Assembly: GCA_028292405.1 (NCBI GenBank)
Contig: JAQGMJ010000028.1
Coordinates: 145,962-209,961, forward strand
Direction: 5' to 3'
From: Betaproteobacteria bacterium
Lineage (GTDB): Bacteria; Pseudomonadota; Gammaproteobacteria; Burkholderiales; JAEUOS01
Length of the DNA stretch: 64,000 nucleotides
Both the position numbers and the translations under genes were made by a program. Every line of letters begins with the position of its first letter. The first letter of the stretch is position 1. Under the pieces are notes generated by a model that did no database searches, was not told the DNA's origin, and saw nothing but the letters and a program-made list of their open reading frames with translations. Positions 39,506-57,639 of the stretch are shown here, piece by piece.

Positions 39506-40891
39506 CTAAAGCTGCGCCACCGGCGCGCTGGCTACGCCGGCCAGCTCCAGCGCCGCCGCCACCCGCAGCGCATCGGCTTCGCGCCAGGGCTTGGCGATCA
39601 CCTGCAGGCCGATCGGCAGCGGCCCCAGGCCGTGCACCGGCACGGCGACGATCGGCAGGCCGATGAAGGACAGCGGTTGCGTCAAAATGCCCATCGAAGG
39701 CCGCGCCGGCAGTTGCTTGCCGTTGAGTTCGAAGGTGTCGGCGCCGACCGGGGTGGCTGCCACCGGCGTGGCCGGGGCGATGATCACGTCGGTGTCGGCG
39801 AATGCGCGCATCACCGCGTGGTAGAACCACAGGCGAAAGCGCTGCGCCTGTACGTACCACTGCACCGGCGTCAGGGCGTTGGCGAGAAAACGGTCGCGGA
39901 TGGCCGGGTCGAAGTCGTCAGGACGGCTGCGCAGGTCGGCCAGGTGCAGGTTGCTGCCCTCCGAGGCGGTGATGACAAAGGCGGCGGCGCGGGCGCGCTG
40001 CGCTTCGGGCAGGATGATTTCGCGGCTAACGTTGAGCGCCTTGGCGGCGGCGGCGACCGCGGCCAAAGCCTGCGGCCCGGCGTTCTCCCTGAAGTAGCCG
40101 CTGGCCACGGCCACGCGCAGGTTGCCCAGGCCTTCCTTGAGCAATTGCTGGGTCGGCTCCATGGCGCGGCGCGCCTGCGCGTAGTCACGCGTGTCCTGGC
40201 CTTGCAGGGCGTCGTAGACGGCGGCCAGGTCGGCGGCGCTGCGGGCGAAGGGGCCGACATGGTCCAGGCTGCAGGTGAAGGGGTAGGAGCCGCGGCGCGA
40301 CAGCCGGCCGTAGGTGGGCTTGATGCCGAAGATGCCGCACAGCGAGGAAGGCACGCGGATCGAGCCGTTGGTGTCGGTGCCGAGCGTCAGCGGCACCATG
40401 CCGGCGGCCACTGCCGCGCCGGAACCGCCAGAGGAGCCGCCGGCCACGCGCGTCAGGTCGTGCGGGTTGCGGGCGGTGCCGTAGTGGGCGTTTTCGGTGG
40501 TGAAGCCGAAGGCGTACTCGTCCATGTTGAGCGCGCCCTGCAGCACGGCGCCGGCGCCGCTCATGCGCGCCACCAGGGCGGAGTCTTCCTTGGCCGGCGG
40601 CAGGTCGCGGTTGATTTTCGAGCCGGCGACGGTGGTGAGGCTCTCGATGTCGAACAGGTTTTTCGCGGCGTAGGGCACGCCGGCCAAAGGCGGCAGCGGG
40701 TGGCCCGCGGCGCGCGCGTTGTCGATGGCGCGCGCTTCGGCCAGCGCGCGTTCGCGGGTGACGGCGGTGAAGGCGTGGATCTTGCCATCGAGGGCATCGA
40801 TGGTTTTCAGCGCAGCCTCGGCAGCCTCGACTGCCGAGATGCGGCCGGCGCCGATGGCCGCGGCGATGCCCAGTGCGTCCATGGATTTCAT
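39506..40891 (-). CDS. atzE: 1-carboxybiuret hydrolase catalytic subunit (AtzE-type amidase)
   Basis: A 461-aa amidase-signature enzyme. The Ser-cisSer-Lys triad is visible: Lys in PYAAKNLFD (about residue 77), the Gly/Ser-rich loop GGSSGGSGAAVAAGMVPL, and LGTDTNGSIRVPSSLCGIFGIKPT. The ATG of MKSMDALG overlaps the preceding stop (ATGA). GatA of tRNA amidotransferase has the same fold, but there is no GatB or canonical GatC here. The small DUF4089 gene directly upstream and atzF beyond it point to AtzE, which removes ammonia from 1-carboxybiuret in cyanuric acid breakdown. A related cyclic-ureide amide could also be the substrate. Confidence 0.85.
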   Translation of the reverse strand: MKSMDALGIAAAIGAGRISAVEAAEAALKTIDALDGKIHAFTAVTRERALAEARAIDNARAAGHPLPPLAGVPYAAKNLFDIESLTTVAGSKINRDLPPAKEDSALVARMSGAGAVLQGALNMDEYAFGFTTENAHYGTARNPHDLTRVAGGSSGGSGAAVAAGMVPLTLGTDTNGSIRVPSSLCGIFGIKPTYGRLSRRGSYPFTCSLDHVGPFARSAADLAAVYDALQGQDTRDYAQARRAMEPTQQLLKEGLGNLRVAVASGYFRENAGPQALAAVAAAAKALNVSREIILPEAQRARAAAFVITASEGSNLHLADLRSRPDDFDPAIRDRFLANALTPVQWYVQAQRFRLWFYHAVMRAFADTDVIIAPATPVAATPVGADTFELNGKQLPARPSMGILTQPLSFIGLPIVAVPVHGLGPLPIGLQVIAKPWREADALRVAAALELAGVASAPVAQL

Positions 40892-41076
40892 ACGCCGGGC
40901 TTCCACAGCGGCGCCGGCTCGTCTTCGGGCGTCAGCGGGAATTCATTGACCAACGCGGCGAGTTGCGCGAGGCGGGTGAAGTTTTCCAGCACGCCGGGGC
41001 GGTGCGCGGCGCTCACCGGCAACTCCAGCGCGGCGCTGGCGGCATCGACGTATTTCTCTATTTGGTCCGGAGTCAT
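40888..41076 (-). CDS. atzG: AtzG-like small subunit (DUF4089)
   Basis: A 62-aa protein, MTPDQIEKYVDAASAALELPV..., close in size to AtzG, the small partner that wraps and stabilises AtzE much as GatC does GatA. It carries the helix-linker pattern VLENFTRLAQLAALVNEFPL and a short C-terminal tail (PLWKPGV). It is not listed with this start in the ORF track. AAGG precedes the ATG. The start of atzE overlaps its stop, and it begins 22 nt after atzF ends, fixing the order atzF-atzG-atzE. Confidence 0.82.
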   Translation of the reverse strand: MTPDQIEKYVDAASAALELPVSAAHRPGVLENFTRLAQLAALVNEFPLTPEDEPAPLWKPGV

Positions 41077-41098: not shown

Positions 41099-42904
41099 TC
41101 AGGCCTTCGCCAGGCTGGCGAGATACGCGCGCCAGCCGCCGAAGGAGGAAATGTCAGTCGCGCCGGCCGCGGCGATGCCTTCGCAGACGAAGCCCTTGAC
41201 CCAGGCGCCGTCCTGCAATTGCACCGAGCCGATGGCCAGCGGCGGCGGCACTTCGGCGACAAAGGCGCCGAAGCTCTCCAGCGGCACGTCCCATAGCTCA
41301 AGCGCGATGGAAGCGCCGCCGTCGGCGCGCAGCATGCCCGGCTTGGGCGGCACCGTGCCCGGCAGGGCATAGAGGCGATAGGCCGGCGCGCTTAGCGCTT
41401 CGCCGGCGAAGCGCGCGCCGCGCGTGGTGAGCTGGTGGTTCAGCGGCAGGCCGCGGAGGTGGGCGCCGACTACTGCGATGCGAGCGTGGCCGGGGGCAGG
41501 CGGCGCAAGCGCCGATGTATCTTGCGCGGGCAGTTCCAGCCCGGTGGCGCCGAGCGGCAGGCCGGTGTCGTGCTGCCAGCGGTCGGCGAAGCCGACTAGG
41601 GCTTCGTCGTACCAGGCCGGCGCGATCAGGGTGATGCCGAAGGGCAGGCCATCATTGCGCATGGCGGCGGGCACGGCGATGGCGCAGAGGTCGAGCAGGT
41701 TGACGAAATTGGTGTAGGTGCCGAGGTGGCTGTTTTTCACCACCGGGTCGTCGTTCACTTCCTTGATGGTGTAGATGGTCGGCGCGCTGGGCACCAGCAG
41801 GGCGTCGATGTCTTTCCACACCGGGGCGGTCATGCGGCGCAATTCCTCGCGGCGGTAGTAGGCCTTGAAGGCATCGACCGCGCTGTAGGCGGTGGCGCCG
41901 GCGATCACCTCGCGCACCACCGGGTGGACGATCTCCGGGCGCTCGCGCATTACCGTTTCGATGGCGGCGTAGCGCTCGGCCACCCAGGGGCCGTCGTAGA
42001 GCAGCGCCGCGGTGGCGAGGAAAGGGGAGAGGTCGATGGAGCTGATCACCGCGCCCATGCGCTGCGCCCGCTCGACCGCCTGCTCGAACACGCGCTGCTG
42101 CTCGGCGTCGCCGAAAAATTCGAGCTGCGCGGGAATGCCCAGGCGCGGCGCGGCGCCGAGTGTCGCCGCGCCGGCGGCGGGGTGACGCGAATAGGTGTCG
42201 CCGGGGTCGAAGCCGCTGGCGGCGGCCAGCACTTGCGCGCCATCGGCGGCGGTGAGCGCGAAAATCGAAACACAGTCGAGCGAGCGGCAGGCCGGCAGCA
42301 TGCCGCGCGCCGACAGCCGCCCCACCGTCGGCTTGATGCCGACAATATTGTTGAAGCCCGCCGGGATACGGCCGGACCCGGCAGTATCTGTTCCCAAGGC
42401 AAAGCTCACCAGGCCGCGCGCCACCACCGAGGCGGAGCCGGAGCTGGAGCCGCCGGAGATGTACTCCGGCTTGAAGCTGTTTTTCACCGCGCCGTAGGGC
42501 GAGCGGGTACCGACCAGGCCGGTGGCGAACTGGTCGAGATTGGTCTTGCCGACGAGGATGGCGCCGGCGTCGACCAGGCGCTGCACCACCGCTGCGCTCT
42601 CGACCGGCATGAAGGCGAATTCCTTGCAGGCAGCCGTGGTGTGCATGCCGGCGTAGTCGATGTTGTCCTTGATCGCGAAGGGAACGCCGTAGAGCGGCAG
42701 GCCGGCGAGCGAGCCGCCTGCTGTGGCGCGGCGCTGCTCCAGCATTGCCACCTGGGCGGCGATGCCGGCGGCCGAGACGCGGGAGATCCAGGCGTTGTCC
42801 TCGCCGGCGGCGTCGCAGCGCGCCAGCACTTCTTGCATTGCCGTGGCGGGAGTGAGGGAGCCCGCAAGGTATTGCCGGCGCAGGGACGAAATCAGCAGGT
42901 TCAC
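41099..42904 (-). CDS. atzF: Allophanate hydrolase (AtzF-type)
   Basis: A 601-aa enzyme, nearly the length of AtzF from Pseudomonas sp. ADP. The N-terminal amidase domain has the catalytic Lys in PFAIKDNIDY, the serine loop ISGGSSSGSASVVARG and FALGTDTAGSGRIPAGFNNIVGIKP (short segment of the signature). The C-terminal domain (about 450-601, from HARIAVVGAHLRGLPLNHQL) is the allophanate-hydrolase-specific region that completes decarboxylation. I place the start at GTG (MNLLISS) with AAAGG upstream, because the extra 19 codons in the track cover the promoter. It splits allophanate to CO2 and ammonia, the last step of cyanuric acid, biuret or urea use. A sigma-54 promoter lies directly upstream. 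Confidence 0.92.
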   Translation of the reverse strand: MNLLISSLRRQYLAGSLTPATAMQEVLARCDAAGEDNAWISRVSAAGIAAQVAMLEQRRATAGGSLAGLPLYGVPFAIKDNIDYAGMHTTAACKEFAFMPVESAAVVQRLVDAGAILVGKTNLDQFATGLVGTRSPYGAVKNSFKPEYISGGSSSGSASVVARGLVSFALGTDTAGSGRIPAGFNNIVGIKPTVGRLSARGMLPACRSLDCVSIFALTAADGAQVLAAASGFDPGDTYSRHPAAGAATLGAAPRLGIPAQLEFFGDAEQQRVFEQAVERAQRMGAVISSIDLSPFLATAALLYDGPWVAERYAAIETVMRERPEIVHPVVREVIAGATAYSAVDAFKAYYRREELRRMTAPVWKDIDALLVPSAPTIYTIKEVNDDPVVKNSHLGTYTNFVNLLDLCAIAVPAAMRNDGLPFGITLIAPAWYDEALVGFADRWQHDTGLPLGATGLELPAQDTSALAPPAPGHARIAVVGAHLRGLPLNHQLTTRGARFAGEALSAPAYRLYALPGTVPPKPGMLRADGGASIALELWDVPLESFGAFVAEVPPPLAIGSVQLQDGAWVKGFVCEGIAAAGATDISSFGGWRAYLASLAKA

Positions 42905-43285: not shown

Positions 43286-44311
43286 ATGAAAATCCTGCCT
43301 CGCATCCTCGCCTGCCTGCTGCTGGCCGCCTGCGCCGCCACCGCGCAGGCGCAAAGTGCCGCCCCGACCAAAATCAAGTTCGTGCTCGACTGGAAATTCC
43401 AGGGCCTGCACGCCTGGTTCATCACTGCGGCCGAGAAAGGCTATTTCGCGCAGGAAGGGCTGGACGTGACCATCGACTCCGGCGACGGCTCAGCCGCCGC
43501 CGTGACCAAGGTGGCCACCGGCGCCTATGACGCGGGCTTCGGCGACATGAGCGCGATCATCCAGGTAGCGGCGACCTCGCCCGCCACCGCGCCGGTGGGC
43601 GTGTTCATGCTGTACAACCGTTCGCCCTTCGTCATCGTCTCGAAGAAGGACCACAACATCCTCAAGCCGAAAGACCTTGAGGGCAAGCTGCTGGGCAGCC
43701 CGGCCAACGGCGCCACCTACAAGCTGTTTCCCGCCTTCGCCAAGGCGGCGGGCATCGACGCCTCCAAGGTGAGGACCACCAACATCGCGGCCAACCTGCA
43801 GGAAACCATGCTGGTGCGCGGCGAGGTGGATTTTCTCGCCGCCTTTGTCAACACCATCTGGTTTTCCTTGAAGCCGCTGAAGGTGGACCCGGAGAAGGAC
43901 CTGAACCTGATCTACTTTGCCGACTACGGCATCGACCTGTACAGTAATGGCGTGCTGGTGTCGCAAAACCTGATCAAGAACAACCCGAACGCCGTCAAGG
44001 GCCTGGTGCGGGCGATCAACCGCGCGATGACCGATGTGCTGGCCAATCCGGATGCGGCGATCGAAGCAGTAGCCAAGCGCGATCCGCTGATCGACAAGGC
44101 CCTGGAGAAGGAACGCCTGCTGATGACTTACAAACTACTGATTGCCACGCCGGAAGCAAAGGAGCTGGGCATCGGCGACGTCAAGGACGAGCGCATGGCG
44201 CGCTCGATCAAGACGGTGGCCGAGGTCTACGGCCTGGCGACGCCGCCTAAACCGCAGGACGTGTTTTCGCGCGCCTTCCTGCCGCCGAAGGCGGAACGGA
44301 TGGTGCGCTGA
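43286..44311 (+). CDS. NMT1/THI5-like ABC substrate-binding protein (no own permease nearby)
   Basis: A 341-aa periplasmic receptor with signal peptide (ILACLLLAACAATAQA; the Cys might be lipidated, but an AQA-QS cut looks better). The opening KIKFVLDWKFQGLHAWFITAAEKGYF matches the NMT1/THI5 family that binds pyrimidine-like and other small ring compounds. The ATG lies at a proper distance from a perfect sigma-54 promoter. Its stop overlaps the deaminase start (TGATG). No ATPase or permease gene follows, so it may share the TauBC-like pair at 20.5-22.1 kb or one elsewhere. Candidate ligand: the heterocycle processed by the enzymes downstream. Confidence 0.9.
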   Translation: MKILPRILACLLLAACAATAQAQSAAPTKIKFVLDWKFQGLHAWFITAAEKGYFAQEGLDVTIDSGDGSAAAVTKVATGAYDAGFGDMSAIIQVAATSPATAPVGVFMLYNRSPFVIVSKKDHNILKPKDLEGKLLGSPANGATYKLFPAFAKAAGIDASKVRTTNIAANLQETMLVRGEVDFLAAFVNTIWFSLKPLKVDPEKDLNLIYFADYGIDLYSNGVLVSQNLIKNNPNAVKGLVRAINRAMTDVLANPDAAIEAVAKRDPLIDKALEKERLLMTYKLLIATPEAKELGIGDVKDERMARSIKTVAEVYGLATPPKPQDVFSRAFLPPKAERMVR

Positions 44312-45657
44312 TGGCAAGTTTGCTGATCAAGGGGGCGCTGGGCGCGTTGACGGGTGAAGCATCGCCGGCGGCGCGGCTGCCGGCCGTGGATGTGCGGGTG
44401 GCCGGCGGGCTGATCGAGGAGATCGCGCCGGCTTTGCAAGCACGCCCCGGTGAGAGCGTGCTCAATGCCGACGGCTGCGTGCTTTATCCAGGCCTGGTAA
44501 ACACGCACCATCATATGTTCCAGAGCCTGCTCAAGGGCGTGCCCGCGGGCATCAACGAGGGCCTGGGGCTGTGGCTGCGCGGCGTGCATTTGCCGCGCCT
44601 GCCGATTTTCGACGAGGAGATGGTGCGCGTGGGCGCGACCCTGGCACTGGTGCAAATGGCGCTTTCGGGCGCCACCACGGTGGCCGACCATTACTATTTG
44701 CATCATGCTGGCGCGGCGGGCGTGCTGTTCGAGGCGGCCGAGCAACTGGGCTTGCGCCTGGTGCTGTGCCGCGGCGCGGTGACGGTGAAGAGCGCCAATC
44801 CGGACTACCCGGACATCGTGCCGCCGGTGAGCTTCGATGCAATGTTGCGCGATATCGACGACCTGGCGGCGCGCTACCACGACCCGTCTGCCGATTCGCG
44901 GCGCCGGGTGGCGGTGGCGCCGCTGACGCCGACCTATTCGGTAACGCCGGCCGAACTCACGGAACTGGCTCGCTTTGCCCGCGCCAAGGGGCTGCGCATG
45001 CACACCCATCTTTCCGAGACGCTGGACTACATCAGCTATACGCGCGAGAAGCACGATTGCCTGCCGGTGCAGTTCATGGCGGAGCACGAGTGGCTGGGGC
45101 GCGACGTCTGGCTGGCGCACATGGTGCATCTGGCGCCGGAGGAAGTCGCGATGGTCGCGGCCAGCGGCACCGGCATCGCCCATTGCCCCACCAGCAACGC
45201 GCGCCTGGGCAGCGGCATCGCGCCCCTGCCCGCTTATACGCAGGCGGGCGTTTCGGTGTCGCTGGGTGTCGATGGCCCAGCCTGCAGCGAGGCCAGCCAC
45301 ATGCTGGACGAGGCGCGCATGGCCTGGCTGATCCATCGCGCGGCCAGCGGGCCGAAGAGCACCACGGTGGAAAACATCGTGCACGCGGCGACCCGCGCCG
45401 GTGCAGTCAATCTCGGCCTCGACAATGTCGGGTTGCTGAAACCCGGCATGGCTGCCGACCTGGTGGCTTTCGAACTCGAAGGGCCGGCTTACTGGGGCCA
45501 GCACGACGCGCTGGCCGCTCCTCTGATCACCGGGCATGCGCGGGTACGGCATTCGCTGGTGGGCGGCCGCGCGGTGGTGCGCGATGGCCTGCTTCCTGCA
45601 ATCGACCTGGAGAAGTTGCGCCACGACGCCGCCGCGGCGGTAGCGAAACTGCACTGA
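44311..45657 (+). CDS. TRZ/ATZ-family amidohydrolase (deaminase; 8-oxoguanine deaminase/AtzB-like)
   Basis: A 448-aa metal-dependent aminohydrolase of the amidohydrolase superfamily. Metal and catalytic residues appear in order: NTHHHMFQSLLKG (about residue 68), HTHLSETLDYI (about 230), WLAHMVHL (about 270) and LGVDGPACSEASHM (about 320). The mononuclear-metal pattern matches hydroxyatrazine/8-oxoguanine/guanine-type deaminases that release ammonia from a ring amine. In an s-triazine setting it could convert ammeline or ammelide towards cyanuric acid; 8-oxoguanine to urate is an alternative. It is translationally coupled to the receptor upstream. The substrate is inferred, the family is firm. 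Confidence 0.87.
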   Translation: MASLLIKGALGALTGEASPAARLPAVDVRVAGGLIEEIAPALQARPGESVLNADGCVLYPGLVNTHHHMFQSLLKGVPAGINEGLGLWLRGVHLPRLPIFDEEMVRVGATLALVQMALSGATTVADHYYLHHAGAAGVLFEAAEQLGLRLVLCRGAVTVKSANPDYPDIVPPVSFDAMLRDIDDLAARYHDPSADSRRRVAVAPLTPTYSVTPAELTELARFARAKGLRMHTHLSETLDYISYTREKHDCLPVQFMAEHEWLGRDVWLAHMVHLAPEEVAMVAASGTGIAHCPTSNARLGSGIAPLPAYTQAGVSVSLGVDGPACSEASHMLDEARMAWLIHRAASGPKSTTVENIVHAATRAGAVNLGLDNVGLLKPGMAADLVAFELEGPAYWGQHDALAAPLITGHARVRHSLVGGRAVVRDGLLPAIDLEKLRHDAAAAVAKLH

Positions 45658-45716
45658 GCCCATACCGGCGCCATATCGAACCTGCCTTGCCCTCCTCCAC
45701 CGCCCACTCCCCCTCC

Positions 45717-46451
45717 ATGCCCGCCACTCCCCTTCACGCCCAGCGCCCGCGCGCCGTGTCCGCCCCGCGCCGCTCCCTGGCCGATGCGATCTACGAGCAG
45801 CTCAAGTCCGAGGTGTTCGACTTCCGCCTGCTGCCGGGCGACCGCTTTTCCGAGTCCGAACTCGCCGAGCGCCTGCACGTGAGCCGCACGCCGGTGCGCG
45901 AGGCGCTCTACCGGATGGAGCGCGAAGGCTATATGGAGGTGCATTTCAAGAGCGGCTGGAGCATCTGCCAGATCGACTTCGCCCAGTTCGAGAATCTCTA
46001 TGACTTGCGGCTGATCCTCGAATCCGAGGCGGTACGGCGCATCTGCCAGATGCCGGAAAACACCGAGCTGCAGCGCCTGGCGCAGCTCTGGCTGGTGGCG
46101 CCGGAGGAGCGCGTGCACGACAGCGCGCGCATCTCGAAAATGGACGAGAGCTTTCACTCGACGCTGGTGGAAATCGCCGGCAACCCGGAGATCAGCCGGG
46201 TGCACCACGAGATCACCGAGCGGGTGCGGATCATCCGCCGGCTGGGGTTTTCCGGGCCGGAGCGGGTCGGCAAGTCGTACGACGAGCACGGCGCGATTCT
46301 CAAATACATTTTGCGCAACCGCGCCGACCAGGCGGTGATGCTGCTGAAAAGCCACATCGAGCTTTCCAAGGCGCAAGCGCGCGAGATCACTCTGCACCAT
46401 CTTTCGGAGGCGCGCCAGCGTTTGCGTCCACGCAGGCTCAAGGTGGTGTGA
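45717..46451 (+). CDS. GntR-family regulator, FCD type (deaminase operon)
   Basis: A 244-aa regulator. The winged helix covers IYEQLKSEVFDFRLLPGDRF and the recognition helix VSRTPVREALYRMEREGYMEV; the FCD domain has DESFHSTLVEIAGN, VHHEITERVRIIRR and YDEHGAILKYI with metal-binding His. It is a close paralogue of the GntR beside atzE. The ATG start is a choice, since the frame is open further upstream; it begins 59 nt after the deaminase stop and the Arg/Pro-rich lead is not conserved. It probably regulates its own operon or the shared divergent region. Confidence 0.88.
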   Translation: MPATPLHAQRPRAVSAPRRSLADAIYEQLKSEVFDFRLLPGDRFSESELAERLHVSRTPVREALYRMEREGYMEVHFKSGWSICQIDFAQFENLYDLRLILESEAVRRICQMPENTELQRLAQLWLVAPEERVHDSARISKMDESFHSTLVEIAGNPEISRVHHEITERVRIIRRLGFSGPERVGKSYDEHGAILKYILRNRADQAVMLLKSHIELSKAQAREITLHHLSEARQRLRPRRLKVV

Positions 46452-46488: not shown

Positions 46489-47274
46489 ATGAACCTGCAA
46501 GACAAAGTAGCCATCGTCACCGGCCCGGCCAAGGGCATGGGCACCGACATCACGCTTACCCTGGCGCGGGCCGGCGCCGACCTGGTGCTGGCCGGCCGCG
46601 ACATGGCGGCGATCGCGCCGGTGAAGGAGCAGGTGGCCGCGCTCGGTCGGCGCGTGATCGCGGTGGCCTGCGACGTCACCCGCGAGGAAGACGTGGCCGT
46701 GCTGGCGAAGGAGGCGCTGATGCATTTCGGGCGCATCGACATCCTGGTCAATTGCGCCGGCGGCACCGGCACCATCGAGAAACCCGGCCACGAGAACACG
46801 GTGGAAGAGTTCGAGCAGATCCTCGACCTCAACATGAAGGGCTGCTGGCTCACCATGCGCGCCGTGCTGCCGACCATGATCGCGCAGCGCTACGGCAAGA
46901 TCGTCAACGTCGGCGGCACCTTCGGCATGCGCGGGCGCTCCGGGCGCATGGCCTACAGCGCTTCCAAGTGGGGCCTGCGCGGCATTACCAAGAGTACCGC
47001 CATCGAGGTCGGCACGCACAACATCAACGTCAACTTCGTCGCTCCCGGCATGGTCGAGGGCGAGCGCTTCAACACCAAGGTGATGCCGGAGAAGGCGAAA
47101 AAGCTCGGGCTTTCGCTGGAAGATGCGCGCAAGACTTTCGAGGCCGAGTACGCGCTGCGGCGGATTTCCACCGGGCAGGACATTGCCAACGCGGTGCTGT
47201 TTCTTGCCAGCGACATGTCGCGGCAAATTACCGGCGTCGATCTCCCGGTCGATGGCGGCTGGGCTGCGCTGTAG
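46489..47274 (+). CDS. Short-chain dehydrogenase/reductase (SDR)
   Basis: A 261-aa classical SDR with TGPAKGMG (cofactor-binding TGxxxGxG, residues about 12-19), NCAGG in place of NNAG, and the catalytic YSASK with the upstream Ser replaced by GGTFGMRG (VNVGGTFG), so the usual catalytic Ser is not obvious. The C-terminus DLPVDGGWAAL is standard. It could oxidise or reduce an intermediate of the pathway; the substrate is unknown. It follows the GntR gene by 37 nt and is the last gene before a strong terminator. Confidence 0.88.
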   Translation: MNLQDKVAIVTGPAKGMGTDITLTLARAGADLVLAGRDMAAIAPVKEQVAALGRRVIAVACDVTREEDVAVLAKEALMHFGRIDILVNCAGGTGTIEKPGHENTVEEFEQILDLNMKGCWLTMRAVLPTMIAQRYGKIVNVGGTFGMRGRSGRMAYSASKWGLRGITKSTAIEVGTHNINVNFVAPGMVEGERFNTKVMPEKAKKLGLSLEDARKTFEAEYALRRISTGQDIANAVLFLASDMSRQITGVDLPVDGGWAAL

Positions 47275-47413: not shown

Positions 47414-48835
47414 ATGCAACCCGTAGACATGCTGATCAAGAACGCCAAGGTCGTTTCGCCCGAATCCACCATCGACGCCTGCATCGCCATTCGCGGCGAA
47501 ATCATCGTCGCAGTCGGCGCCGAAGAGGCGATGCCGCCGGCCAAGCAGGTGATCGACGCCGGCGGAAAATACGTGATCCCCGGCGCGATCGACAGCCACG
47601 TGCATTTCCGCACGCCGGGCTACGAGTACAAGGAAGACTGGTATACCGGCACCGGCGCGGCAGCGCGCGGCGGCGTCACTACCGTGCTGGAGATGCCAAA
47701 CACCAACCCGCCCACCGGCACTGTCGCGGCGCTGACGCAAAAGCAGGAAATCGCGCATTCGCAGGCAGTGGTGGACTTCGGCATCTACGGCCTGCTCGAC
47801 GAGAACAACATCGACATACTCGAAGACCTGATCGCAGGCGGCGTCTCCGGCTTCAAGTGTTTCATGGGCAACACCTTCGGCAACCTGCCGGCGCCGTCCG
47901 ATGGCGCGATGCTCGAAGGCTTCGAAATCCTCGCGCAGCACGGCATGCGCTGCACCGTGCACGCGGAAAACCCCTCCATCATGGCGCGGCGCCAGGGCAA
48001 GATGGAAAAAGCCGGCCGCACCGATTCGATGGCCCACCTGGCTGCCCGCCCGGCGGTGTGCGCGATGGAAGCGGTGAGCCGCGCCGCCATTTTCGCCGAG
48101 TGGACCGGCGCGCGCCTGCACATTGCCCACAAGAGTTCGGCCGACGGCCTTTACTTCGTGCGCGACGCCAAGCGCCGCGGCGTCGACATCACGGTGGAAA
48201 CCTGCCCGCAATATCTGCTGCTTAATACGGACATGATGCAGGCCCTCGGCAAGGAGGGCGGCATCATGCGCGTCAACCCGCCGATCCGCGAGCCGGGGCA
48301 TGAAGAGCCGCTGTGGCAGGCACTGCTCGACGGCACCGTGGACATGATCGCCACCGATCACGCGCCGCACTCGCCTGAGGAAAAGACCCGAGCCAGCATC
48401 TGGGAATGCGACTGCGGCTTTCCCGGCGTGGAAACGCAAATGCCGTTGATGCTCACCGAAGTCAACAAGGGCCGCGCGACGATCAACCAGTACGTTGCCT
48501 GGTCCGCCGCCAACCCGGCCAAGGCCTGGGGCTTCTACCCGCGCAAGGGCGTGATCCAGGCCGGCGCGGAAGCCGACATCGTGATCGTCGACATGAACAA
48601 GGACGAGACCATCGACCAGGGCGGCCTGTTTTCCAAATCCAAGATCACCCCCTGGCACGGCCGCAAGATCAGCGCCAAGCCGGTGCTCACCATGGTGCGC
48701 GGCCGGGTGGTAATGCAGGACGGCGAAATCATCGCCGCCGCCGGCACCGGCCGCGCCGCACGCCAGCAGATGCCGGCGCCGAAGCCGCGCAACCTCGACA
48801 AGACCACCGCCGCCATTCTCGATTACAAGGCCTGA
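47414..48835 (+). CDS. Cyclic amidohydrolase (dihydroorotase/allantoinase/hydantoinase-like)
   Basis: A 473-aa binuclear-metal amidohydrolase. Metal ligands are intact: SHVHFRTPG (about residue 58), the carboxylated Lys in SGFKCFMGN (about 150), VHAEN, IAHKSS and [12 protein letters not shown] (about 318). The DHAPH pattern resembles dihydroorotase/allantoinase more than bacterial hydantoinase. I chose the ATG of MQPVDML, with GAGG 5 nt upstream; earlier codons overlap the operator-like repeat. No pyrimidine-synthesis genes are near, so a catabolic cyclic amide is likely. The next gene starts 2 nt after its stop, so it is coupled to the AtzD homologue. Confidence 0.88.
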
Positions 48836-48837
48836 CC

Positions 48838-49923
48838 ATGTACCGCATCGACGTCCACAAGATCGGCCAATCCGGCCCCGGCGACCTCTCGGGCCTGAAG
48901 GCCCTGATCGAGGCCGGCACCATCAAGCCCGAGCAGATCATCGCGATGATGGGCAAGACCGAGGGCAACGGCTGCGTCAACGACTTCACCCGCGAATACA
49001 CCACCGTCGTCCTGTCCCAATACCTCGGCGGGCTGCTGCAGCTGACGCCGAAGGCGGTGGAAAAACGCATCGCCTTCGTCATGTCCGGCGGCACCGAGGG
49101 CGTGCTGTCGCCGCATATCACGGTGTTCACCCGCGTCACTGCCGACCCGGTGCGCATGGGGCCGAAGCGCCTGGCCGCCGGCATCGCCTTCACCCGCGAG
49201 TTTTTGCCGGAAGAATTGGGGCGCATGGCGCAGATCGAGGCCACCGCGCAGGCGGTGATGGAAGCGATGCGCGACGCCGGCATCGCCGACCCGGAGGATG
49301 TGCATTTCGTCCAGGTGAAGTGCCCGCTGCTCACCGCCGAACGCATCCGCGAAGCCGCGGGGCGCGGCGCCCAGGTGGTGACCCATGACAACTACGAGTC
49401 GATGGGCTATTCGCGCGGCGCCTCCGCGCTCGGCGTGGCCTACGCGCTGGGCGAAGTGCAGCGCTCGCAGCTTTCCGACGCCTGCGTTCTGAACGACTGG
49501 AAGCTCAATTCCGGCGTGGCTTCCACCTCTGGCGGCATCGAACTGATGTACAACGCGATCATCGTCTTCGGCAACGCCGCCGCCTCGCCCAGCCCCTACG
49601 TCTGCGCCCATACCGTGATGCGCGACGCCATCGACGCGCGCTCGGTGATGGACGCCATTGCCGGCCTGCCGGTGCCGGCAGCCAACATCGTCAACGTCTT
49701 CGCCAAGGCCGAGGCCGACCCCAGCGGCAGCACGCGCGGCCGGCGCCACACCATGCTGGAAGATTCCGACATCAACCAGACGCGGCATGCGCGCGCCGTG
49801 GTCGGCGGCGTGATCGCCTCGGTGGTCGGCGACCCGATGATCTACGTCTCCGGCGGCGCCGAGCACCAGGGGCCGCCTGGCGGCGGCCCGGTGGCGATCA
49901 TCGCGCGCACCGAAACGTTTTGA
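48838..49923 (+). CDS. atzD: Cyanuric acid amidohydrolase (AtzD/TrzD-type)
   Basis: A 361-aa ring-opening amidohydrolase of the length of AtzD. Its motifs agree closely with classical Atz[77 protein letters not shown] and [14 protein letters not shown]. The three Ser-Lys pairs of the trefoil active site are all there. The enzyme opens cyanuric acid to 1-carboxybiuret without a classical metal mechanism. With AtzE/G and AtzF nearby the full route to ammonia is encoded. Oddly, it is not with atzEGF but between a cyclic amidohydrolase and an M20-type gene. Barbiturase activity cannot be excluded from sequence alone. Confidence 0.9.
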
Positions 49924-49925
49924 GC

Positions 49926-51104
49926 ATGGCCGCGGGTCCGGCGGGCGACGCAACAGACGACAGCATCGCGCAAGCCCTGCTGGCGCTGCTCGGCGACCTG
50001 ATCGCGATTCCCTCGACCTTCCCCGCCGGCAACACCGAAGCGATCGCGGACTATTGCGCACGCCGCCTCGCCGCCGCCGGCTACGCGGTGCAGCGCGCCG
50101 ATTCCGGCGGCGTCGTCAACACGGTGGCGCGCATCGGCAGCGATGCGCCCTCGGTGGTGTTCAACGTCCACGCCGACACGGTCGAGCCCGGCGAGCGCGG
50201 CGCCTGGAACACCGATCCATTCCAGGCGCAACTCATCGATGGCCGCATCCACGGCCTGGGCGCGGGCAACTGCAAGGGGCCGATGGCGGTGCAGCTATGG
50301 CTGGCTGGGGAAGTGGCGCGGCGCGGCGGCCCGAAGCACGGCGAGATCGTCTTTACCTTCGTCGGCGACGAGGAAAGCCTGGGACCGCACGGCCTGAAAT
50401 TCCTGCGCGACGCCGGCCACGTGAAGCCGGACATCCTGATCGTCGGTGCGCAGACCGAAAACCAGTTGGTGGTGGAAGAGCGCGGCGTGATGTGGAGCCG
50501 CATCACCACGCGCGGCAGCACCGCCCACGCCGGCATGCCGCACCTGGGCGACAACGCGATCCTGCGCATGCTTAGAGTGCTGCAACATATCGAGACAGGT
50601 CTGGTCCCGCAGATTGCGGCGCGCAAAAGCGGCACCAAGCAAGCGACCTTGAGCGTCGGCACCATCGCCGGCGGCAGCAATACCAACGTGGTGCCGGGCA
50701 GTTGCAGCGTGACCATCGACCGCCGCCTGCTGCCGGAAGAAAATCTCGACAGCGCGTTCGCCGAATTGCGCGCAGTTGCACTGGCAGCCGGCGAGCCGGC
50801 CGGCACGGTGGAAGTCGAACTCCTCACCGGCTCAAACGGCTTCGACAGCGGGCGCGGCGGCAAGGGCGTGGCGGCCTTCAGCGATGCGATCGAAAAGCTC
50901 TCCGGCGCGCCTGTGCGCTTTCTCGATGTGGTGGGCGTCTTCGATGGCCGCTACTTCGCCCGCGACGGCATCGAGATCATCGACTTCGGCCCGGGCGAAG
51001 GGCACGAAGGACATGCGCCGAACGAATCGACGCCGCTCGCGCAATTGGTTCAGGCCGCGCGGATACAGTTGCAGGTGTTGCGAAAACTCACGGACATTGC
51101 GTGA
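49926..51104 (+). CDS. M20-family (ArgE/DapE-like) protein with altered metal site
   Basis: A 392-aa protein with the two-domain M20 layout. The first metal His and Asp are in FNVHADTVEPG (about residue 80) and the catalytic Glu pair is in FVGDEES (about 147). The dimer-domain His is in GSTAHAGMPHLG and the last metal His in GEGHEGHAPNE. Two usual ligands are changed: the bridging Asp of GLGxxDxKG is Asn here (GLGAGNCKG), and the Glu of GEPT is replaced in VGAQTEN. It may bind one metal or do a different reaction. The ATG follows the atzD stop by 2 nt. I infer it processes the ring-opened product. Alternative: an ordinary amidase with shifted ligands. Confidence 0.82.
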   Translation: MAAGPAGDATDDSIAQALLALLGDLIAIPSTFPAGNTEAIADYCARRLAAAGYAVQRADSGGVVNTVARIGSDAPSVVFNVHADTVEPGERGAWNTDPFQAQLIDGRIHGLGAGNCKGPMAVQLWLAGEVARRGGPKHGEIVFTFVGDEESLGPHGLKFLRDAGHVKPDILIVGAQTENQLVVEERGVMWSRITTRGSTAHAGMPHLGDNAILRMLRVLQHIETGLVPQIAARKSGTKQATLSVGTIAGGSNTNVVPGSCSVTIDRRLLPEENLDSAFAELRAVALAAGEPAGTVEVELLTGSNGFDSGRGGKGVAAFSDAIEKLSGAPVRFLDVVGVFDGRYFARDGIEIIDFGPGEGHEGHAPNESTPLAQLVQAARIQLQVLRKLTDIA

Positions 51105-52325: not shown

Positions 52326-53804
52326 TTATGCCAATGAAGCGGCCGCGCCGGTACCGGCAATTTTGCCGAACACCGCGCCCGACACCAGGCCGGTGCCGCT
52401 GGCATAGTTGAAATAGAAAATACCGCCGACCATTTCGCCGGCGCAAAACAGGCCGGGGATCGGGCGGAAATTCACGTCCACCACCTGCCCATTTTCCGGA
52501 TCGATGCGCAAGCCGCCGAAGGTGAAGGTGATGCCGCAGGTGGTCTGGTAGGCGTCGTAGGGCGGCGTGTCGAGCGCCTGCGCCCAGTTCGACTTCGGCG
52601 GGTCGATGCCCACCGTGCCCTTGCCGTCCTTCACGGTGTGCTGGAAGGGTACGTCTTTTTGCACGGCGGCGTTGTACTCCTGGATGGTCTTGAGCGCGGC
52701 TTTCGAATCCACGCCCTCGAGCTTTTCCGCCAGCTCCTCCAGCGTATTGGCGCTCACCTTGGTGACGAACTTGATGCGGTATTCATTGCGCAGGTAGTCC
52801 TTCACCTTGGCGTCGAACACCTGCCAGGCGAACTGCGCGGTTTGCTTGAGCACTTCGCCGCCGTACTTGGCGTAGGTGAAGGAGTGGAAGTCGTAGCCTT
52901 CATCGACAAAGCGCTTGCCGGAGGAGTTGATCAACAGGCCGAAGATGTAGCTGTGCTTCTGGAACTTGTCGCCGACGTTGACGTCCCCGAACTCCGGCGC
53001 GTTGCGGTCCCAGCCGGTGGCATGGCAGCCGGACCAGTTGCCGTAGGGCGCCGCCCCGATATCCAGCGCCATCTTCAGGCCGTCGCCCTGGTTGAAGCGC
53101 GAGCCGCGCACCTTCGCCAGTTCCCAGCCTGGACCTAAGTAGCGGGCGCGCATTTCCGGATTCGCCTCGAAGCCGCCGCAGGCCAGGATCACCGCCTTGG
53201 CGTGGAACTCCACCACCTCGCCGCGCTGCTGCGTGACCACGCCGCCGACGCGGATGCCGTCGTAGATCAGCTTGGTGACGCGGGTTTCGTAGAACACCTC
53301 GATGCCGGCCTTTTTCGCCGCCTTGTCGAGAAACTCCACCAACCCGGCACCGCCGCCCGACACCTCGATCGGCAGGCGGCCGAAGAACTTGCGCTTGCCG
53401 TTGACGAGACCCGACTGGCGGCCGTAGTTGGGCACGAAGCGCACGCCCGTCTCTCGCAGCCAGGCCATCGTATCCAGGCTCTTGGTGACCAGGATCTCGC
53501 ACAGCGTGGGGTCGGTGCGGAATTGCGTCAGGCGGAACATGTCGTCGAAGAACTCGTCTTCGCGGTTGGTGCCGTAGTCGCTGTCGGCGATCTCTTCATC
53601 GGTCAGTTCGGTGACGCGCTTCAGGTCTTCCACGCTCGAGTAGGCGAAGCGCATCACGCCGCCGGCAAAGCGGCTGTTGCCGCCGGATTCGTCTTCGTTC
53701 GCCGCCTCCAGCACGGCCACGCGTGCGCCCTTCTGGCTTGCCGCCAGCGCCGCGCACAATGCCGCGTTGCCCTTGCCCACCACCACCACGTCGTACTGAT
53801 GCAT
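52326..53804 (-). CDS. FAD-dependent tricarballylate dehydrogenase-like flavoprotein
   Basis: A 492-aa flavoprotein of the fumarate reductase/succinate dehydrogenase family, with best visible resemblance to TcuA. FAD site: YDVVVVGKGNAALCAALAA at the N-terminus; GGNSRFAGG; ILACGGFEANPEMR (about 215); and C-terminal GGLRIDPENG with PGLFCAGEMVGGIFYFNYASGTGL. The ATG of MHQYDVV has AGGAG 6 nt upstream, which rules out the longer track start. TcuA oxidises tricarballylate to cis-aconitate. Here it sits with PrpD-type enzymes that act on citrate/aconitate-like acids, so a tricarboxylate or related polyacid substrate is likely. TcuB, its usual electron partner, is absent. Confidence 0.87.
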   Translation of the reverse strand: MHQYDVVVVGKGNAALCAALAASQKGARVAVLEAANEDESGGNSRFAGGVMRFAYSSVEDLKRVTELTDEEIADSDYGTNREDEFFDDMFRLTQFRTDPTLCEILVTKSLDTMAWLRETGVRFVPNYGRQSGLVNGKRKFFGRLPIEVSGGGAGLVEFLDKAAKKAGIEVFYETRVTKLIYDGIRVGGVVTQQRGEVVEFHAKAVILACGGFEANPEMRARYLGPGWELAKVRGSRFNQGDGLKMALDIGAAPYGNWSGCHATGWDRNAPEFGDVNVGDKFQKHSYIFGLLINSSGKRFVDEGYDFHSFTYAKYGGEVLKQTAQFAWQVFDAKVKDYLRNEYRIKFVTKVSANTLEELAEKLEGVDSKAALKTIQEYNAAVQKDVPFQHTVKDGKGTVGIDPPKSNWAQALDTPPYDAYQTTCGITFTFGGLRIDPENGQVVDVNFRPIPGLFCAGEMVGGIFYFNYASGTGLVSGAVFGKIAGTGAAASLA

Positions 53805-53820
53805 CAATTTCTCCTGAGGG

Positions 53821-55224
53821 TTAATCCAGGGACAGCAGCGCGCCGATGGCACGCACGTCGTCCAGTGTTTCGATTTGTTGGATCGCGTCGTAGGCCGCGT
53901 TCACCTTGGCCTCGCCCAGCGCCGGCGTGGCGCAGTGGGCGAACTTGTCGCGCAAAGCGCGCGCCGACAGCGGGTTGTCCGAGGTGCGCCCCGCCGGCTG
54001 CTCGGTCTTGCCCGAGAGCACGCGGCCATCGCGCAGGCGCACTTGCACTTCGCCGCCGAAATGGTTGTCGGGGGAGAATTGCGCATCGCCATACGGTGCG
54101 GCCTTCACGCGCGGCAGCAGGCGGCGCACCCGCGCATCCATGTACGCCTTGTCTTCGAAATGCGCCAGGGTGACGCTGGCATCGAGCAATGCGCGCGCGA
54201 CGACGTACTGCACGCTGAACTTGGCGTCGAGCTCGCTGTTCGGATCGGGCCGGTTGGTGTGCTTGAGGCGCCGCTGGTGGGTCCAGATATTCACCTCGGC
54301 GATGTCCTCTTCCCTGAACTTGTGCGCGTGGGAAAGTTCGATCGCCACGTCCACAGCCGGGTGCGTGCTGCCGCAGCAGGGATATTGCTTGATCGCGATG
54401 CCCGGGCGCACGATGTCCAGTGGGCTGGCCCAGGCGTCGATGCCGCGCTGCGCGTCGTAATTGCCGGCGCCGTTGTAGACCTCGAAAAACCCCTGCTCAT
54501 GCTCGAACACCCGCGCGGCATTGGCGGTGTAGCCCGCCTGCGCCATTTTCGCCGCCAGCAGGCCCTCGCTGGCGCAGCGGCCGATGTGAAAGGGCTTGGT
54601 CATGGTGCCGAAGTTGGCCTTGATGCCGGCGGCGGAGGAGGCGGCGAGCGCGACGGCCACCGCCGTCTGCGCCGCATCCAGGTCCAGCAGGCGCGCGCAC
54701 GCCGCGGCCGCGCCAAACACGCCGAGGGTGGCGGTCGGGTGCCAGCCCTTCATGTAGTGGTGAAAGTTCACGCTCATGGCGATCTTGGTCTCGAGCTCGA
54801 AACCGGCGACATAGGCGGCGACGAACTTCTTGCCGTCCACCCTGGCCTCATCGGCCAGCGCGAACAGCGCTGGCAGGACCGGCGCCGAGGGGTGGCCACC
54901 CATGGTGTTGTTGCAATCGTCGAAGTCCAGCGCGTGGCTGGCGGTGCCGTTGATCATCGCCGCGTCCAGCGCGCGGACCCGGCCGCGCAAGCCGAACAGC
55001 GCACTCGGCCCCGATGCCGGCGTCAGTGCCTTTGTCAGCAGCGCCGCACAAGGCTCGCGCGCGCCGGCCACGGTGACCCCGGCAGTGTCGAGAATGCCGA
55101 CCTTGGCCCAGTGCACTGCCTCGGGCGGCAGGTCATCGTAATCCATTGCGGCGACCAGCGCGCCGAATTGCTGCGCCAGTCCGATTGCCTGTGTACCGAC
55201 AGATTCCTTGAGTATGGCTGCCAT
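53821..55224 (-). CDS. MmgE/PrpD family protein 1
   Basis: A 467-aa member of the MmgE/PrpD family (2-methylcitrate dehydratase, cis-aconitate decarboxylase, iminodisuccinate epimerase). It keeps the canonical HALDFDDCNNTMGGHPSAP segment (about residue 98), GWHPTATLGVFGAAAA, and the YPCCGSTHPAVDVAIEL stretch in the second domain. AGGAG lies 6 nt before the ATG. It is 16 nt upstream of the flavoprotein gene and 9 nt after the Bug receptor. Of the three paralogues it looks most like a standard dehydratase/epimerase; exact reaction unknown. Confidence 0.9.
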   Translation of the reverse strand: MAAILKESVGTQAIGLAQQFGALVAAMDYDDLPPEAVHWAKVGILDTAGVTVAGAREPCAALLTKALTPASGPSALFGLRGRVRALDAAMINGTASHALDFDDCNNTMGGHPSAPVLPALFALADEARVDGKKFVAAYVAGFELETKIAMSVNFHHYMKGWHPTATLGVFGAAAACARLLDLDAAQTAVAVALAASSAAGIKANFGTMTKPFHIGRCASEGLLAAKMAQAGYTANAARVFEHEQGFFEVYNGAGNYDAQRGIDAWASPLDIVRPGIAIKQYPCCGSTHPAVDVAIELSHAHKFREEDIAEVNIWTHQRRLKHTNRPDPNSELDAKFSVQYVVARALLDASVTLAHFEDKAYMDARVRRLLPRVKAAPYGDAQFSPDNHFGGEVQVRLRDGRVLSGKTEQPAGRTSDNPLSARALRDKFAHCATPALGEAKVNAAYDAIQQIETLDDVRAIGALLSLD

Positions 55225-55233
55225 ATGGTTCTC

Positions 55234-56247
55234 CTATGCTTCAGTGCGCAGGCCGAGTTCGCGGATCAGCTTGCGCCAGCGCGTGATTTCCGAGCGGATG
55301 TGCTCGCCGAATTGCGCCTGCGTGGTGCCCACCGGCTCCGAGCCGTCCGCACCGAGCCGCTCGGCCATGTCCGGCGAGCGCAGCGCGGCTACGATGCCCT
55401 GGTTCAATTTGGCGACGATGGGCGCGGGCGTGGCGACCGGTGCCATCACGCCGTACCAGCCGGCGACTTCGAAGCCCGGCAGGCCCGACTCCTGCACCGT
55501 CGGAATATTCGGCGCAGCGGCGGCGCGCTTCGCGGTGCTCACCGCAATCGCCCGCAGCTTGCCCGCCGCGATGTGCCCGTGCGATTGCAGCAGCGTGGAA
55601 AACAGCATCTGGATATTGCCGCTGATCACGTCGGCCATCGCCGGCGCCCCGCCCTTGTAGGGCACGTGGGTCATTTTCACGCCGGCCATCGAGGCGAACA
55701 GCGCGCCGGACAAATGGCTGAAGCCGCCGATGCCCGAGGAGCCATAGTTGATGCTGTCCGGCTTGGCCTTCGCCAGCGCGATCAGCTCGGCGACATTCTT
55801 CACCGGCAACCTCGGATTGACCACCAGCACATAGGGCTGCGAAGTCACCTGCGTGATCGGCGCCAGATCGCGCGTCAGGTCGTAAGGCGTGTGGCCCTGC
55901 AGGGTGACGTTGACCGAGTGGCTGGAGGAGATCATGGTCAGCGTGTAACCGTCCGGCGCCGCCTTGGCGCACATGTCGACGGCGATGGTGCCGTTGGCGC
56001 CAGGATGATTTTCCACCACCACCGATTGCTTCCACGCCTCGGTGAGCTTTTGCGCGATGGCGCGCGAGGTGATGTCGACGCCGCCGGCGGCAGCGAAGGG
56101 GCACAGCAGGCGGATCGGCTTGCCCGGGTAGTCCTGCGCCGGGTCGCGCTGCGCGAAGGCGGCGGGCGCGCAACCGGCCGCCCCGAATGCAGTCAGCGCT
56201 TGCAGCAGCCTGCGACGGTCGGCGCTTTCGATGATTGCCTGGTTCAT
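55234..56247 (-). CDS. Bug/TctC-family solute receptor
   Basis: A 337-aa periplasmic receptor of the Bug family (tripartite tricarboxylate transporter type). Signal peptide RRRLLQALTAFGAAGCAPAAFA, then the typical YPGKPIRLLCPFAAAGGVDITSR, GANGTIAVDMCAKAAPDGYT and the conserved SSGIGGFSHLSGALFASMAG and VPYKGGAPAMADV. The start has AGGAG 6 nt upstream. These proteins bind carboxylates or other small molecules; orphan receptors without TctAB membrane genes are usual in Burkholderiales, as here. Within this operon it likely captures the polyacid broken down by the flanking enzymes. Confidence 0.93.
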   Translation of the reverse strand: MNQAIIESADRRRLLQALTAFGAAGCAPAAFAQRDPAQDYPGKPIRLLCPFAAAGGVDITSRAIAQKLTEAWKQSVVVENHPGANGTIAVDMCAKAAPDGYTLTMISSSHSVNVTLQGHTPYDLTRDLAPITQVTSQPYVLVVNPRLPVKNVAELIALAKAKPDSINYGSSGIGGFSHLSGALFASMAGVKMTHVPYKGGAPAMADVISGNIQMLFSTLLQSHGHIAAGKLRAIAVSTAKRAAAAPNIPTVQESGLPGFEVAGWYGVMAPVATPAPIVAKLNQGIVAALRSPDMAERLGADGSEPVGTTQAQFGEHIRSEITRWRKLIRELGLRTEA

Positions 56248-56283
56248 GATTGTCTCCTCATGATCTTCCGTTCCCGGCCGGCT

Positions 56284-57633
56284 TTACCGCAGGTCCAGGT
56301 GCGACAGTTTTTCCAGCCCGCGCAGGCTGCCCAGCCAGCGCTCGCTGATCTCGCCCGGCAGGTCGGCGGCCAGGCGCCGGTATTTGGCGTCGGTGGCCGC
56401 ATCGTCCAGCGGCTGCTCCGGCGCGCCACGGAAAGTTTCGCGGTCCACATCGAAGCGGCGGCCGTCGCGCAGTTGCAGTTCCAGCCGGCTTTGCCAGGCG
56501 CCCTTGGCACCGGCCTCTTTGCCATACGGCTGCAGAACGATGCCGCGACACGCTGTGGCAATGCGCGCATCGGCCAGCGCATCTTCATTGAATGAACGGG
56601 GGTCGGCCGGGTCGCGGTGCAGCGCCAGCGCGACGCAAAACGGCACGCTGTATTGCGCCTGCATCAAATCACCCGGCGCGCGGATGTCGTGATGGCTGAG
56701 CACTTTTTCCGACACGCTCAGGCGGATGTTCTCCACCTCGTCGCCGCCGAACCCGTGCTCGGCCATCAAGGTGCACAGCGACTCCACCGGCGTATGCGCG
56801 GTAACGTGGCAGGGAAAGGCCTTGATGCAAATGCGCTCGACTTCCCACTGCTCGCCGAGGCCGGCGGTTAGCTTCGATGCATCGGCGTCGCGGCAATACG
56901 TCTCAAGAAAACCGAAGCGCCCTTCCAATATCGTCTCCGGCCCGCCAAAGCCTTCCGCCGCCAGCCCGGCGGCGAGCACGCCCGCCTCCGCGGCGCGCCC
57001 CAGGTGCAGGCGCTTGACCTCGCCGCCCCCGGCAGACTTGGTAAACGCCAGCAAGCCGGAAGAGAGCGAGCCGGCGATGCCCAGCGCATCGGCCAGTTGC
57101 TCCGCGGACAGGCCCATCACCACGCCCGCCGCGATCGCCGCGCCATACGGCCCGGTCAGCCCCGGCGCGTGAAAGCCCAGGCCTTCGCTGGAATGCCTGG
57201 AAGCCGCGCCGATGCGAAACATCACTTCGCAGCCGGCGATAAACGCCAGCAACAATCGCTCACCCGAAGCGCCGCCCTGCTCGGCCGCGGCCAGGGCCGC
57301 CGGCAGCAGCACCGCGCCGGGGTGCACCCCCGCGCCCGGCTTGCGCAGGCTGTCCTGCTCGAAAGCGTGGGCGAAGCTGCCGTTGACCAGCGCCGCCATC
57401 TGCGCCGGCAGGCGCAACTGCGGCAGGCCCAGCACGGTGCAGCGCCCGCCGGCGCCGAAGCGGCTGGCATAGCGCGCCACCGCCTGGCTCCAGGGAAAGC
57501 GGCTGCCGAAGGCGGCCACGCCCACCGTGTCGATGATGCAATTGCGCGCGCGCTCGACCACCGCCGGCGGCACATCGGCGAGCGACAGTCCGGCGGCAAA
57601 GCGCGCCAGGGTGACGGCGGCGGTCTGGCTCAC
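56284..57633 (-). CDS. MmgE/PrpD family protein 2
   Basis: A 449-aa MmgE/PrpD paralogue with a GTG start, 6 nt after the stop of paralogue 3. The family's HALDFDD segment is replaced by HAFEQDSLRKPGAGVHPGAV, as seen in non-dehydratase clades. Other family marks are GFHAPGLTGPYGAAIAAGVV, the Lys segment HLGRAAEAGVLAAGLA and CIKAFPCHVTAHTPVESL. The changed acidic motif suggests a different substrate or reaction (epimerase or decarboxylase) from paralogue 1. It may pair with paralogue 3. Confidence 0.88.
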   Translation of the reverse strand: MSQTAAVTLARFAAGLSLADVPPAVVERARNCIIDTVGVAAFGSRFPWSQAVARYASRFGAGGRCTVLGLPQLRLPAQMAALVNGSFAHAFEQDSLRKPGAGVHPGAVLLPAALAAAEQGGASGERLLLAFIAGCEVMFRIGAASRHSSEGLGFHAPGLTGPYGAAIAAGVVMGLSAEQLADALGIAGSLSSGLLAFTKSAGGGEVKRLHLGRAAEAGVLAAGLAAEGFGGPETILEGRFGFLETYCRDADASKLTAGLGEQWEVERICIKAFPCHVTAHTPVESLCTLMAEHGFGGDEVENIRLSVSEKVLSHHDIRAPGDLMQAQYSVPFCVALALHRDPADPRSFNEDALADARIATACRGIVLQPYGKEAGAKGAWQSRLELQLRDGRRFDVDRETFRGAPEQPLDDAATDAKYRRLAADLPGEISERWLGSLRGLEKLSHLDLR

Positions 57634-57639
57634 GGCGGC

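Follow-up and report, generated by a model that had tools for sequence, protein, structure and literature searches.

The 64,000-nucleotide stretch of DNA analysed here (the window) encodes an M20-family protein in which two of the metal ligands expected for its type have been replaced. It is best described as an M20 variant within ureide catabolism whose reaction is predicted. The reading we prefer, at a probability of about 0.4, is that of an M20 enzyme with at most one metal that takes over once allantoate has been cleaved, with ureidoglycine as its most likely substrate. Its placement in ureide catabolism is strongly indicated by gene context; metal content, substrate and reaction are inferred. 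The gene (ATG at 49926, TGA at 51104, 392 aa) and the two codons concerned are located as follows:

49926..51104, + strand, M20 protein with Asn115 at the bridging-Asp position and Ala175 at the GEPT-Glu position (Pfam, TIGR01910, motif alignment)
50268..50270, + strand, AAC codon of Asn115, bridging-Asp position (alignment)
50448..50450, + strand, GCG codon of Ala175, GEPT-Glu position (alignment)

Domain matches over cut-off are found to Peptidase_M20 (PF01546, 80.3 bits) and M20_dimer (PF07687, 76 bits), and the protein also passes the ArgE/DapE subfamily model TIGR01910 (230 bits, cut-off 217.6). None of the named M20 enzyme models in the match list comes close to its cut-off: the best score for a DapE equivalog is 186 versus a cut-off of 381, that for ArgE (TIGR01892) is 151 versus 298, and that for the YgeY equivalog (PRK13004) is 167 versus 321 bits. 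Its best 25 NCBIfam matches are of the ArgE/DapE type, and models for AllC and the hydantases are missing among them. An AF2 model (pLDDT 87), made with an input alignment of 20 sequences from which one row from a plasmid collection (L014) was left out, has the M20 fold. Its best VIA matches are DapE (7uoi, Z 39) and ArgE (8uw6, Z 38), and 5-nitroanthranilate aminohydrolase also matches (VIA Z 36.6). The reading frame is intact and codon use is normal; since both changes are, in addition, fixed across relatives, a pseudogene or a sequencing error is ruled out.

We take the roles of the ligand and catalytic residues of DapE to be established knowledge for this family. When ligand positions are assigned by alignment with H. 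influenzae DapE (3ic1/5vo3), Asn115, within the motif GLGAGNCKG, falls at the bridging Asp (D100), and Ala175, within VGAQTEN, falls at the GEPT Glu (E163). The other pairs (window protein/DapE) are H82/H67, E149/E134, E150/E135 and H363/H349. An initial annotation of this gene had described the Asp to Asn change, the lost Glu, and the retention of the catalytic Glu pair and the outer His, and the alignment bears out each of these observations. Among the 39 aligned members of the window's family, residue 115 is always Asn; at residue 175, 38 members have Ala, one has Thr and none has Glu. Thus, the dinuclear M20 ligand set (H, bridging D, E, E/D, H) is incomplete throughout the family (N, 39/39; A/T, 39/39), while His82, Glu149-Glu150, His201 and His363 are invariant in all 39. 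In 16/16 canonical M20 proteins, taken from these genomes and from E. coli, the bridging position holds Asp. A visibly degenerate M20 paralogue, L084 (G838 C49), which carries NACLDT (His to Cys) and DEH (Glu to His), was set aside from these comparison proteins.

Three relatives have APT instead of AQT, indicating that the constant feature is the loss of the Glu and not the presence of the Gln. The tripeptide Glu185-Arg186-Gly187 is both invariant in the window's family and specific to it. Glu178 was considered as a substitute ligand and ruled out, since its position varies. Because the ligand changes are fixed in all 39 family members and the catalytic residues are invariant, we read the changes as neither chance nor decay, and a mono-metal or metal-free M20 enzyme is plausible.

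Close relatives of the window protein are 48-58% identical to it. With the window genome counted each time, the family is present in 3/399 genomes of the window's own order and in 2/398 genomes of a phylum-wide draw; it is also present in 66/76 genomes of one other order of the same phylum, which from its make-up we guess to be Reyranellales. In one member genome (G838 C24, ~116600-116930; L098/L075), a fragmentary second GNC-type M20 copy, its middle apparently deleted, lies just downstream of the intact one.

A second ligand-deficient M20 family, VSK, was first met as the next-best M20 match in genome G001 (170 bits, versus at least 560 for the window's family). Its motifs are GVAVSKS, in which the bridging Asp has become Val, and SAGFS, in which the Glu is lost; all 47 sequences have Val or Thr at the bridging-Asp position and Ala, Pro or Ser at the GEPT-Glu position. 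The C-terminal metal His is also replaced, by Lys, in 29/47. In these Lys-type proteins (e.g. L136, L137, L141, L146, L153, L168), only His82 and Glu150 remain of the five ligands. Across all 86 sequences of the two families, His82, Asp84, Glu149, Glu150 and His201 are invariant. AllC is near VSK loci of both types (Lys, 26/29; His, 8/11), and this sameness of neighbours suggests that up to three of the five ligands have been lost without a change of setting. VSK is present in 50/399 genomes of the window's order and also on Azospirillum, Roseomonas, Aminobacter, Variovorax, Caballeronia and Burkholderia replicons. Each ligand-deficient family forms a solid clade in trees (100/100); the two as one clade give an AU p of 0.54, and the trees fit either a single or a separate origin.

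The placement of both families in ureide catabolism comes from their neighbours. Loci were picked by protein score, not context, and neighbours were counted by tblastn, since a simple gene caller was at times misled about the strand where GC content was very high. For both families together, an AllC-type allantoate amidohydrolase is near 66/78 loci and a PuuE allantoinase near 55/78. AllC adjoins 32/38 loci of the window's family, and PuuE adjoins 30/38; within ~6 kb of VSK loci are found AllC (34/40), PuuE (25/40), UraD (22/40), PuuD (18/40) and UraH (17/40). The AllC linkage far exceeds a chance rate of ~1.3% per locus, roughly estimated from genomes that hold as many as six hydantase-type genes, with the caveat that related genomes do not count as independent. 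Annotated cases of an allantoin context are present in Aminobacter, Azospirillum and Roseomonas, and VSK loci such as L093 and L146 contain PuuD, UraH, UraD, PuuE and AllC, the route from urate to ureidoglycine, together with the M20 gene. The adjoining AllC proteins keep all metal ligands (68/68, plus one with a gap), in marked contrast to their M20 neighbours.

As expected of an enzyme of the ureidoglycine stage, most relatives are encoded with an allantoinase and an allantoate amidohydrolase; the window copy itself adjoins an AllB-like enzyme, not AllC. Five members (the window's, L001, L003, L016 and L017) have an AllB-like hydantoinase in place of AllC. Extra genes near these hydantoinase-type loci encode a C-N hydrolase (L001, L016), a RutB/BiuH-like hydrolase (L017) or AtzD (the window). 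In L003, the M20 gene is adjoined by homologues of E. coli FdrA and YlbE (the oxamate branch) and by a glyoxylate-type aminotransferase; this stretch of an alphaproteobacterial MAG (L003 1-10376) is an oxalurate/oxamate-type ureide cluster with hydantoinase and SDR. In the window, the genes upstream of the M20 gene are:

39506..40891, - strand, AtzE-family amidohydrolase (TIGR02715, 677 bits, cut-off 426)
40888..41076, - strand, AtzG-like small subunit (PF13318, 62 bits)
41099..42904, - strand, AtzF allophanate hydrolase, divergent (TIGR02713, 810 bits, cut-off 511; PF21986)
43286..44311, + strand, NMT1/SsuA-type substrate-binding protein
44311..45657, + strand, TRZ/ATZ-type amidohydrolase (PRK12393; 8-oxoguanine-deaminase-like; NF009059, 580 bits, cut-off 543)
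45687..46451, + strand, GntR/FCD regulator
46489..47274, + strand, SDR-family oxidoreductase
47414..48835, + strand, cyclic amidohydrolase, allantoinase AllB-like (TIGR03178, 370 bits, cut-off 357.85; BLAST)
48838..49923, + strand, AtzD/TrzD-family ring-opening amidohydrolase (PF09663, 505 bits; NF052395, 533 bits, cut-off 360)

Gaps of only 2 bp separate the AllB-like gene from AtzD and AtzD from the M20 gene, and so the three form one tightly packed unit. By BLAST, the AllB-like hydantoinase is 33% identical to E. coli AllB; the best PDB matches of AtzD are the cyanuric acid hydrolases 4bvq and 6bum. A homologue of the SDR adjoins the hydantoinase and M20 genes also in L003 and L017. Within 12 kb, on the opposite strand and divergent to the run that holds the M20 gene, lie the genes for AtzE, the AtzG-like subunit and AtzF, and together with AtzD they make the window look like the carrier of a cyanuric acid route; no AtzH was recognised among the called genes scanned near the cluster. 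In a published survey, atzG-atzE-atzH clusters occur near allantoate amidohydrolase genes (PMC6219798); thus, atz-type and allantoate-type clusters are known to meet. In the window genome, PuuE is nowhere over cut-off, AllA gives only a weak match (40 bits), and the one M20C gene is on a different contig. Given the adjoining AtzD and the lack of a PuuE over cut-off, the window copy may have another substrate than the AllC-linked majority.

Elsewhere in the window, a second AtzD-family protein (NF052395, 469 bits) is encoded directly downstream of a FAD monooxygenase (26855-27970 and 27996-29219, both - strand). Apparently the same pair is present in G001 (L097 7761-10078), and it is possibly an oxygenase/ring-opening pair for a purine or pyrimidine. 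A separate catabolic cluster (52326-59037, - strand) contains a TcuA-like FAD dehydrogenase, at least two MmgE/PrpD-family genes and a tricarboxylate-type binding protein. Chromate-type transporter genes lie near three hydantoinase-M20 clusters (window 37071-38456, - strand; L001 6234-7393; L016 4529-5625), those of L001 and L016 being recognised by eye and mutual similarity only. Finally, an open frame of ~4984 codons (3-14960, - strand), with DUF4347 as its sole recognised domain, probably encodes a giant surface protein.

Since the clusters reach ureidoglycine via AllC, the step left open in them is the conversion of ureidoglycine to ureidoglycolate. A point against the ureidoglycine reading is that this compound also decays spontaneously. 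The ureidoglycine aminohydrolase AllE (TIGR03214) is over cut-off in 0/14 tested genomes with the window's family, with a positive E. coli control; most of the same genomes have a strong AllA match (10/14) and a PuuE over cut-off (11/14). However, few genomes of the window's order carry AllE at all (4/399), and 1/50 VSK-positive genomes also carries it. Consequently, the absence of AllE is weak evidence for its replacement by M20, and says little about avoidance of AllE by M20-positive genomes of this order.

In the mechanism we propose, the two-metal site would have been dismantled, leaving one metal at most, and the enzyme group would act in ureide (allantoin) catabolism directly after ring opening and the first ureido cleavage. 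Water would replace the α-amino group of ureidoglycine, giving ureidoglycolate and ammonia (the AllE step), with Glu149 serving as the acid/base and His201 of the partner subunit helping to bind the substrate. An aminal needs far less electrophilic activation than an amide; this would account for the loss of the two-metal site. The window cluster would then be a variant, served by the same enzyme but with its ring opened by the AllB-like hydantoinase. A wider and more doubtful proposal is that both M20 groups, perhaps convergently, are metal-light or metal-free aminal hydrolases that perform the ureidoglycine step instead of AllE; in the part of VSK with three of five ligands lost, a metallopeptidase scaffold would then catalyse without any metal.

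Other explanations can be weighed against the ureidoglycine reading. The protein could be a one-metal ureido (carbamoyl) hydrolase, that is, an allantoate or ureidoglycolate amidohydrolase or an enzyme for another N-carbamoyl product of the adjoining hydantoinase. There is a good precedent in YgeY, an M20 (PF01546) protein that cleaves a ureido group after the hydantoinase HyuA in the reductive urate breakdown of E. coli (PMC12507026, PMC12990295); the E. coli set of SsnA, HyuA and YgeY (PMC12507026) is mirrored by the TRZ/ATZ amidohydrolase, hydantoinase and M20 genes of the window, L003 and L001. In addition, 24/24 family members match the YgeY model, with the window protein under its cut-off. 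However, YgeY and the compared AllC proteins keep the bridging Asp, a complete AllC already adjoins in most loci, and ureidoglycolate is covered by AllA in many genomes. Such a hydrolase is a serious competitor, though less likely than the ureidoglycine reading. We consider it improbable that the protein is a pseudoenzyme, assisting or regulating AllC without catalysis of its own. That AllC adjoins in most genomes, and that two or three metal ligands are missing, would fit such a role, but all 86 sequences keep the catalytic Glu149 and the trans-His201, which is unexpected for a pseudoenzyme. Moreover, the difference between the ArgE/DapE type and the hydantase-type AllC makes a mixed dimer unlikely, and several loci, the window's among them, have no AllC nearby.

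Two further readings bear on the initial annotation. It had suggested a mono-metal or metal-free enzyme, perhaps a decarboxylase or a hydrolase for carbamoyl products of AtzD, and had proposed checking whether GAGNCKG-type M20 proteins co-occur with AtzD. The metal-poor part of this interpretation fits a ligand loss conserved in two families; the link to AtzD does not hold as a general rule, as the relatives adjoin AllC and PuuE, and a decarboxylase or AtzD-product hydrolase is conceivable at most for the window copy. There, action on AtzD products (1-carboxybiuret, 1,3-dicarboxyurea or allophanate), e.g. in place of AtzH, has some points in its favour: AtzD is in the same gene run, the divergent atz genes lack a recognised AtzH, and the Pseudomonas ADP pathway is encoded by atzDGEHF (PMC6219798). 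However, of the 39 family loci examined, the window's is the sole one with AtzD adjoining. AtzD is missing from 7/14 tested genomes and, outside the window, lies elsewhere in the genome in those that have it, so that the family at large offers no support and the proposal is quite improbable. A normal two-metal enzyme, with other acidic residues filling both positions, has the least to recommend it and is very improbable. Glu185, invariant in the window's family, could be a substitute ligand, as it aligns with DapE Arg178, a residue of the DapE active site. It is conserved in that one family only, however, being His in VSK, and the alignment contains no invariant acidic residue specific to both ligand-deficient families near either lost ligand.

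Homology-based annotation labels M20 proteins as metallopeptidases or deacylases, but the two families described here lack the residues on which that chemistry depends. Both are almost always in urate/allantoin gene clusters, which suggests an unrecognised step in purine nitrogen recycling. If this is the ureidoglycine step, a gap in a central route of nitrogen recovery would be filled, and the proteins would offer a natural series (five, three and two ligands) for metal loss and the gain of a new reaction in a two-metal hydrolase.

Among known systems, the M20A deacylases DapE and ArgE share with the window protein the fold, domain order, catalytic Glu, metal-2 Glu and His, and trans His. Unlike them, the window protein is without the bridging Asp and GEPT Glu, is only 20-26% identical, and has no adjoining lysine or arginine genes. 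E. coli YgeY is likewise of the M20A type, follows a hydantoinase and belongs to ureide chemistry (PMC12507026), but it keeps the Asp and Glu ligands (GTSDQEG, TEPTD). The M20C amidohydrolases AllC and HyuC (allantoate and carbamoyl substrates) share the pathway and gene neighbourhood, whereas AllC is of the hydantase branch with all ligands kept. AllE, the (S)-ureidoglycine aminohydrolase, has the reaction and place in the pathway proposed here; it is a cupin-type protein (ura-cupin, TIGR03214) with no homology to M20, and it is absent from the 14 genomes tested. Finally, 5-nitroanthranilate aminohydrolase (5k8p) has an M20-type fold and, judging from PDB titles, replaces an amino group by water, as proposed here for ureidoglycine; its substrate, however, is aromatic.
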